Below are positions 33,208 through 34,519 of a DNA stretch of 64,000 nucleotides, piece after piece. Position numbers and translations under genes: made by a program. Each line of letters begins with the position of its first letter. Within the stretch, counting starts at the first letter, position 1. The notes below the pieces were generated by a model that was given only the letters and a program-made list of their open reading frames with translations, was not told the DNA's origin and did no database searches. The DNA lies in NCBI GenBank assembly GCA_021234155.1, contig JAJEKV010000004.1:11594109-11658108 (forward strand), written 5' to 3'. Source of the DNA: Isoetes taiwanensis (taxonomy: Eukaryota > Streptophyta > Lycopodiopsida > Isoetales > Isoetaceae).

Positions 33208-34519
33208 ATGGCCCGAACCAAACAGACCGCCAGGAAGCGTCGCCCAGGCGAAACCACCACTGATGCTGACATCATTCGGCAGATGCTTCATGAGAAGCTC
33301 GCGAGAGGGGGTCGTTCGCCTTCGAGCGAGGAAGATATCTCAGAAGGTCAAGACACATCCGATCTGATTGATGTCTTCAATCAGCAGGTGGAGCAGGACG
33401 AGGCCACATCACCAACCTCCATGGACGAGGAGACAAAGGGAGGTATACGAGGAAATAGAGCGGGAGATTCGAGAGCAGGAAAGGGCAGAGAACCACTCTG
33501 ATGCAGCCACAGAAATCCTCGAGGACGAGGAGGAGGCGGCACATCGGGAGAGAAGAACAAAAGACCAGCAGGAGCACAACGAGTCGGGACTTGAGCCGGC
33601 AGAGGAAGCAGATCTCGCGAAGTTCATCAGAAAGTATGAACGCCGGGAGAAGAAGAGGGAACAGAAAAAGAGGAAGAGGGAAGAGGAGGAACAGAAGGCG
33701 GCCGAAGAGAAGAGGAAGGCGAAGGGGAAATTCGTGGACGGCCCAAGGAAGCTGAAGGACGTCCCACCAAGAAGGAGGCCCAGCCCCAAAGTCGTCATCA
33801 AAGAGCGGCAAGCCGACCAACCTCCGAACCCCGACGACGACTCCTCCGACGAGGACTTCAACCCCAATGCTGCAAGTGGAAGCTCTTCTAAACCCCCAGG
33901 CGACGAGCAGGTAGCACCTGAGCAGCCAGCGCCAGAACAGACCCAGCAAGATCAAGTGCAGAAGCCCCCTGAGTACCCGGCTTGGGACAGGAAGAAACAG
34001 CCATGGCCTGCCCGAGAAGCCTACGTCATAGACCGAGTCAAGATATACGAAAGGAAGATGAGGGAACACGAGGCGTATATGAAGAAGTGGGAGGCCTACA
34101 GTAAGTACTATGAAGAAAACAGGGTTGCATTCGTCGAGGGAGGGCGACCAACGAAGCAACAGACCTTAAAGCCGCCACCACCAAAGCCCAAGGCTCCCAA
34201 GCCGCCACCCAAGAAGAAGAGGCTCGACATGAAGGAGGTGGAGAGGAGAGCGCTAAGGGAGATTAGGCACTTCCAGCGCAGCTACGGTCTTCTAATCCCC
34301 CGTGCCCCCTTTGCTCGGCTAGTTCGGGAGGTGATGCAAGACTTCAGGACAGACTACAGGGTCACAGATGAGGCGCTGCTGGCAATGCAGGAAGCGGCTG
34401 AGGCAAAGATAGTGCAACACTTTGAAGACTCAACAGCTTGCACTGTTCACGCCAAGCGGGTAACCCTCATGCGACAAGACATGCTTCTTGCGAGTCGCAT
34501 TAAGGGAGAACGCCCTTAG
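33208..34519 (+). CDS. ORF1: extended histone H3-like protein
   Basis: ATG at 33208 sits in a good context (A at -3, G at +4). Residues 2-10 are ARTKQTARK, equal to the H3 tail through Lys9. Then come an acidic/basic, coiled-coil-prone region (RKYERREKKREQKKRKREEEE), a Pro-rich linker and PPPKPKAPKPPPKKKRL. From 34250 to the TAG at 34517 an 89-residue H3 fold reads ALREIRHFQRS ... PFARLVREVMQDFRTD ... AMQEAAEA ... FEDSTAC ... HAKRVTLM ... RIKGERP. By eye about 50 of about 90 positions equal canonical H3, with canonical loop-1 length (not CENP-A-like). The frame changes by one base between 33368 and 33501, probably at AAAGGGAGG (33435-33442). Total about 436 residues if joined, against about 136 for H3. 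Predicted nuclear, nucleosome or cDNA packaging; role inferred. Confidence 0.88.

Follow-up and report, generated by a model that had tools for sequence, protein, structure and literature searches.

A selected histone H3 gene, with tail tip and fold far apart, in a Ty3/gypsy retrotransposon of Isoetes taiwanensis

A histone H3 relative encoded by an LTR retrotransposon

A stretch of 64,000 nucleotides of the Isoetes taiwanensis genome (assembly GCA_021234155.1, contig JAJEKV010000004.1, positions 11,594,109 to 11,658,108 of the forward strand; referred to throughout as the window) contains a long terminal repeat (LTR) retrotransposon of the Ty3/gypsy type, the first open reading frame (ORF) of which encodes a relative of histone H3. 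The element and the parts of this H3 ORF (ORF1), numbered from the first letter of the window, are:

30972-44233, + strand: Ty3/gypsy LTR element
33208..33237, + strand: H3 tail tip MARTKQTARK, with K4 and K9
33238..34249, + strand: charged, Pro-rich insert from tail tip to fold, with a frame change near 33430 in the window copy
34250..34516, + strand: H3 histone fold of 89 residues, followed by a stop codon at 34517-34519

The initial annotation took ORF1 to open with ARTKQTARK, and 33208-33237 does read MARTKQTARK, the tip of the H3 tail. The fold matches Pfam PF00125 (Histone) at E 9.3e-28 (97.4 bits against a cut-off of 26.4) and its best match in the PDB is an H3.3 chain (E 4.4e-28, 88 residues aligned). 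An AlphaFold2 model of the fold has a pLDDT of 85.8 and all 50 entries listed as structural matches to it are nucleosomes or H3-H4 complexes; profile, PDB and structure model thus agree on an H3-type histone fold. It is identical to the host H3 fold at 52 of 89 residues (58%), close to the 55% first estimated against canonical H3, and it aligns without gaps to host H3 and to the PDB H3 chains shown. Loop 1 therefore has the canonical length that had been proposed, and the lengthened loop 1 of CENH3/CENP-A is absent from the fold of this family (family A).

The arrangement of the protein departs from that of H3. Where canonical H3 has a tail of about 40 residues that runs straight into the fold, here a charged, Pro-rich region separates the two parts, its length being 304-345 residues in copies with a single frame (about 330 had been claimed). 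None of the canonical H3 residues 11-36 is recognisable in this insert, and its second-frame part (residues 20-292 of 383) had no relative at E 0.001 among 5.8 billion proteins.

In the window copy tail and fold lie in different frames (33208-33501 and 33368-34519, respectively). Loci L001-L076 were partly picked for long open frames, and a TKQT-type start was required. Among them are 27 distinct copies in which a single open frame of 400-444 codons leads from the tail tip into the fold, at least to HAK. Two of the 27 start with I instead of M. The frame covers the whole fold in 25, all but L050 and L055, which end earlier. Since so many other copies have tail and fold in one frame, the frame break of the window copy is read as private to it or as a sequence error. 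A programmed -1 frameshift at 33435-33441 was considered as the cause of the frame change and rejected, as the second frame is the +1 frame (by inspection, with no computation).

Copies of the H3 gene in the genome

The assembly searched comprises 1,658,258,908 bases in 1110 contigs; the published assembly is described as 1658.30 Mb in 204 scaffolds and 909 contigs, built from nanopore reads with gap filling (PMC8566536). The fold gave 9,279 first-look candidates, 150 of which were scored; all 150 matched, at 82-100% identity, and eight had a stop inside the matched stretch. First-look totals are loose and do not give the true copy number, for which the 150 scored family-A folds are a floor. 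The fold is thus present in at least 150 genomic copies, which disposes of the concern that it is a one-off capture of a host gene. Queries with the tail and with gag gave 1,310 candidates (150 scored) and 26,118 candidates (64 scored), respectively, and canonical H3 gave 9,022 candidates.

Histone H4, of similar length, served as a control. It gave 69 candidates, all of which were scored. Of the 43 matches obtained, 16 are full-length genes (99-100% identity) and the others are partial or degenerate. By this comparison of H3 with H4, H3 is amplified in the genome and its partner H4 is not, and the element would consequently need the H4 of its host.

Downstream of the H3 ORF the element has a second ORF, ORF2, followed by gag (coordinates below). 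The order H3 fold, ORF2, gag recurs in all three other loci examined, and gag lies downstream of ORF2 in 3/3 other ORF2 loci, one of these gag sequences being divergent (43%). From the 64 gag matches, four for which neither H3 nor ORF2 was listed were chosen; all four have ORF2 directly upstream (69-71%), in pieces that stop before the H3 ORF. The histone-profile match is significant and copies of the family carry H3, so that neither of the outcomes named in the initial annotation as refuting it occurred, no systematic search for H3-less copies having been made.

One locus (L012) combines a closely related H3 fold and an ORF2 of 94% identity with a gag of no more than 43%; possibly the module is passed from one gag-pol backbone to another.

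Selection on the tail tip and fold

The fold set comprised the window copy and each distinct copy among 70 loci that aligned ungapped with at least 55 of 89 residues matched, giving 61 sequences; the loci dropped were duplicate places, gapped or too degraded. Values of dN/dS are medians of pairwise Nei-Gojobori estimates over pairs neither saturated nor nearly identical, and are approximate because the copies are mutually related and the pairs non-independent. For the fold the median was 0.079 (1187 of 1830 pairs usable, 61 copies) and pooled pN/pS over all pairs was 0.156, while the same DNA gave 1.93, 1.89 and 1.40 in frames +1, +2 and antisense. Differences fell on codon positions 1, 2 and 3 at 13%, 10% and 42%. 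The ten-codon tail had a median of 0.016 (711 of 1275 pairs usable, 51 copies; pooled 0.067), its third codon positions being 41% divergent. At 0.205 (27 single-frame ORFs), the insert is also constrained, less so than fold and tail. Judged by these substitution patterns, the fold is a selected part of a gene and is strongly constrained.

Individual residues were retained to very different degrees. T3, K4 and R8 are invariant in 61 aligned tails (59 distinct places); K9 is present in 54 of them, the others having V (five, all RVP), I (one) or S (one), and S10 occurs in a single tail. In the fold, R69, R72, R83 and C110 are found in 61/61 copies, H113, K115 and D123 in 60, T118 in 59, L126 in 58 and R116 in 55. 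We take these to be DNA contacts or part of the H3-H3 bundle.

A host H3 captured by chance might have been multiplied without any role, as in fungal transduplication. Transposon capture of host H3 is published (PMC3538342, PMC6710886) and some copies of the Isoetes gene are broken, a stop being present in 6/61 folds. Set against this are the dN/dS ratios of 0.079 in family A and 0.024 in a second family described below (shifted frames gave 1.9 or above), a tail tip kept despite 41% divergence at third positions, and the 25 distinct copies in which one frame covers tail and whole fold. The observed selection already largely refutes such a passenger, which we regard as extremely improbable. The view of the initial annotation, a retrotransposon-encoded H3 relative lacking a CENP-A loop, is upheld by the profile match, the copies across the genome, the signs of selection and the association with ORF2 and gag.

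A second H3-bearing family

With canonical H3 as query, 15 host H3 genes of the ordinary kind (96-98%) were recovered, together with 135 less similar matches. Fifteen of the latter (L092-L106), whose sequences were read, make up family B. Their fold is identical to host H3 at 76-78 of 89 residues, with H3 residues starting from about K37, and the ARTKQTARK tip was not seen in the 15 copies read. Eight of them have an in-frame N-terminal domain of about 320 residues that starts with MAITK, MANTK or MATTK (six were found by script, L096 and L101 by eye). The dN/dS of the family-B fold was 0.024 (102 of 105 pairs).

A tree built from 86 folds sets family A apart from all other sequences on a single branch (support 99). 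Family B forms a clade (support 100) near host H3, and the CENH3 rows are weakly placed. Comparison of dN/dS between families A and B was mostly saturated (13 usable of 915 pairs) and there were no usable pairs between family B and host H3. Two H3 captures are possible, as is one old capture with very unequal rates.

A relative of ORF2 lies downstream of one family-B gene (L107, L108; 23% identity, tblastn 3e-8) and a gag-protease related to that of the window lies behind another (L109; 8e-57). That ORF2 is shared by families A and B favours a common element background. No gag-pol like that of the window was found within about 5.4 kb downstream of the first family-B copy (L107, L108; E above 1), and the 8.4 kb upstream of it gave only a weak 25% stretch on the opposite strand (E 0.03).

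Twelve database proteins (P0001-P0012), most from ENA contigs, in which a long N-terminal part likewise precedes an H3 fold, possibly represent a third H3-bearing mobile family. Several carry a tip of the VRTKQTERK or VKTKQTARK type; P0003 and P0011 do not. Among family A, family B and these proteins, the non-fold parts showed no kinship beyond short H3 stretches.

Proposed role of the element H3

The product of the gene is probably an H3 variant that has a lengthened tail and combines with host H4 in nucleosomes. It comes from a selected gene of a Ty3/gypsy chromovirus lineage, and in it a charged arm of 304-345 residues separates the tail tip (residues 1-9) from the H3 fold. The H3 ORF would be transcribed from an internal promoter, and its product would enter the nucleus, pair with host H4 via the kept H3 interface residues and be placed in nucleosomes. 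Arm and tail tip would then project and alter how the host reads chromatin carrying the element H3. That chromatin would most likely be newly made DNA of the element itself or the sites at which it prefers to insert.

As the fold, and not the tail, is common to both families, the comparison points to H4 binding, probably in nucleosomes, as the core activity, with the arm (family A) or another domain (family B) as the part that differs. The tip of family A has been displaced to the end of the arm, yet its sequence has hardly changed, suggesting that proteins still read or modify it. Set against the residues kept in the fold are several substitutions: R63 is replaced by P in 60 folds, F84 by V in 61/61 and K122 by Q in 49, and R129 is kept in only 36.

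Viral histone mimicry is known, and the element protein could likewise be a mimic or tether acting outside nucleosomes, its tip recruiting or titrating H3K4 readers or writers and its fold binding only H4 or chaperones. A tip nearly free of amino-acid change (K4 in 61/61) would suit such a role. We nevertheless think it unlikely, since family B, without the tip, keeps its fold under stricter selection and the DNA-contact arginines of the fold, R63 excepted, are largely kept. The three roles put forward in the initial annotation, packaging of element cDNA, insertion into host nucleosomes to keep the element open and decoying of histone-modifying enzymes, are hypothetical; because of family B, a pure tail decoy cannot, on the sequences compared, be the general role.

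With an H3 variant that joins host H4 in nucleosomes, the possible consequences can be ranked, with protection or marking of the element's own chromatin placed above recruitment or titration of tail readers, and that above integration targeting. More tentatively, and with slightly less than even confidence, these families may represent a retroelement lineage that has H3 as a core gene, in which hybrid nucleosomes with host H4 give the element's DNA a chromatin identity of its own making, marked by the additional long arm. It would exist in at least two forms, with the tip present or absent. Hosts silence retrotransposons mainly through chromatin; if the proposal holds, an element supplying its own selected H3 would act on the very substrate of silencing. 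The family-A copies (at least 150, perhaps thousands) also constitute a natural mutational scan of H3 residues, including a tip isolated from its tail.

ORF2, TATA boxes and palindromes

Four palindromes and two TATA boxes precede the H3 ORF and ORF2:

32740..32806, + strand: 67-bp palindrome 1, 5' of the H3 ORF (z -9.6)
32930..32997, + strand: 67-bp palindrome 2, 5' of the H3 ORF (z -9.4)
33098..33107, + strand: TATA box CTATAAATAG, 110 nt 5' of the H3 ORF, within the best conserved stretch of the region
34665..34732, + strand: 67-bp palindrome 3, 5' of ORF2 (z -9.5)
34866..34933, + strand: 67-bp palindrome 4, 5' of ORF2 (z -9.0)
35124..35133, + strand: TATA box CTATAAATAG, 123 nt 5' of ORF2
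35247..36782, + strand: ORF2, 511 amino acids

ORF2 gave 15,210 first-look candidates, of which 84 were scored, with 86 matches at 75-100% identity. It had no match above cut-off in Pfam or NCBIfam and no relative at E 0.001 among the 8000 best candidates from the 5.8 billion proteins; a single-sequence structure prediction (pLDDT 33.5) was unusable.

A box like CTATAAATA stands about 110 nt before the start of the H3 ORF in 63/66 hits, a total in which a few loci appear twice or in the wrong orientation, compared with 101/3,300 shuffles. Before ORF2 the distance is 123 nt in 9/9, window copy included. Conservation across 62 copies is 97% in the TATA window and 82% in the upstream region. The palindromes are near-perfect and come in pairs, with a spacing of 190 bp in the pair preceding the H3 ORF and 201 bp in that preceding ORF2. 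Other loci have them too, with 100 ungapped copies at 53 loci, where 1836 of 1971 pair cells are complementary (73 distinct sequences), changes on both sides being chiefly at two positions. They are candidates for a regulatory site or a small-RNA source. With a TATA box and a palindrome pair before each, the H3 ORF and ORF2 look like separate transcription units under a common control element.

This organisation bears on whether the H3 protein instead belongs to the particle and packs the cDNA or RNA of the element. The largely kept DNA-contact residues and the presence of gag in the same element would fit; an H3 ORF with its own TATA box and no gag fusion, and a protein that would still need H4, would not, and we consider packing very unlikely.

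Structure of the element

The remaining features of the element are:

30967..30971 and 44234-44238: 5' and 3' copies of the target-site duplication CTGTA, from the sequence
30972..32533, + strand: 5' LTR, TGTGACG...TCACA
32535..32546, + strand: primer-binding site TGGTATCAGAGC, found by eye
36956..39061, + strand: gag (Retrotrans_gag, Ty3_capsid) and aspartic protease, by Pfam
39110..41620, + strand: reverse transcriptase, RNase H and integrase, by Pfam
41624..41734, + strand: chromodomain (Pfam Chromo, 5e-9)
42644..42656, + strand: polypurine tract AAGGTGGGGAGAA, found by eye
42657..44233, + strand: 3' LTR

Two LTRs, a target-site duplication, a primer-binding site (presumably of the initiator tRNA-Met type), a polypurine tract and the order gag, protease, reverse transcriptase, RNase H, integrase identify a Ty3/gypsy element. 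A CCHC knuckle match in the gag-protease region scores under its cut-off. The LTRs differ by 15 transitions and 5 transversions over 1562 aligned bases (Kimura two-parameter distance 0.0129). The terminal inverted repeats and hAT transposase that mark hAT-borne H3-like genes (H3L) are absent from this LTR element with gag-pol, and no hAT match was found among six window proteins scanned. Of the initial description as an otherwise ordinary chromovirus, the second word stands, as the window copy has a chromodomain at the C-terminus of integrase (preceded by an in-frame TAG); the first does not, given ORF2, the pair of internal TATA boxes and the four palindromes of 67 bp.

The chromodomain raises the question of integration targeting, in which it would read K9 of the element H3 or H3-H4 chaperones would carry the pre-integration complex. 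There is a precedent in the chromodomain of the fungal element MAGGY, which directs integration by H3K9me (PMC3350952), and the window copy has a chromodomain and K9 is found in 54/61 tails. Against it, Group-II plant chromodomains, should that of the window be one, are without known ligand (PMC3350952). Position 9 is moreover V, I or S in 7/61 tails and family B is without the tip, so that targeting seems quite unlikely.

Comparison with known systems

Marseillevirus histone doublets, bracovirus H4 and the tail of influenza NS1 are cases in which, as here, a mobile or viral genome encodes a histone or a tail mimic. We know of none that is an H3 with tip and fold split by a long arm inside an LTR element.

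Closer parallels are the H3-like genes on fungal hAT DNA transposons, H3L of Pyrenophora tritici-repentis (PMC3538342) and those of Pseudocercospora fijiensis and relatives (PMC6710886); hAT transposons captured H3 more than once. They share with the Isoetes element that a transposable element carries and multiplies an H3 relative. The fungal carriers, however, are DNA transposons with terminal inverted repeats. Their copies number from tens (the Pyrenophora reference has 26) to hundreds and are mutually very similar or inactivated by RIP, and long-term selection on their H3 is not described in the parts of these papers available. The Isoetes element is an LTR retrotransposon; its H3 gene occurs in two diverged families, is under strong selection, has a TATA box of its own and is accompanied by ORF2.

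Ty3/gypsy elements of Phalaenopsis have an extra ORF for an AlkB-type m6A demethylase (PMC9289625) and resemble the Isoetes element as a plant gypsy lineage that has fixed a host-like protein as an additional ORF, but that protein is an enzyme acting on RNA and not a histone. In the main text of this survey of 121 angiosperm genomes, 'histone' occurs twice, neither time as an element domain. Plant chromoviruses of seed and non-seed plants likewise have Ty3/gypsy gag-pol and an integrase chromodomain, with no histone gene described in the available portion of the source (PMC3350952). The word 'histone' is also absent from the main texts of the I. taiwanensis paper (PMC8566536) and the Isoetes sinensis paper (PMC10541799).

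The initial annotation held an H3 gene to be unknown in described plant retrotransposons. This stands in so far as searches of the open-licence PMC literature, which leaves out most subscription papers and bioRxiv preprints, found no H3-encoding LTR retrotransposon; it is qualified by H3 on fungal hAT transposons (PMC3538342, PMC6710886). Elements bearing host genes are known; new in this one, as far as these searches go, is a histone that diverged element lineages have retained as a gene under selection.

Other repeats in the window

A second, partial copy of the element at 3-5963 (+ strand) is an indel-rich repeat of 28394-34619, including the 5' flank, with 5193-5545 unmatched. It has the same insertion site as the main copy and 2.6 kb of 5' flank in common with it, many single-base gaps, and fold mismatches spread over codon positions 1, 2 and 3 (11, 18 and 10, of 89 each). 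An independent insertion was rejected on these grounds and the copy is not counted as one. It is probably the same locus, an assembly artefact from poorly corrected reads and likely uncorrected nanopore gap-fill sequence, which the nanopore origin of the assembly fits.

Outside the element, 58205-58973 (- strand) is about 75% identical to its LTR and is possibly a remnant LTR of a related family. Local repeats (86-98%) are present at 19421-22145 and 61469-64000, and 56285-56770 (- strand) contains a reverse transcriptase fragment (Pfam RVT_1, 1.6e-16), probably from a non-LTR element.
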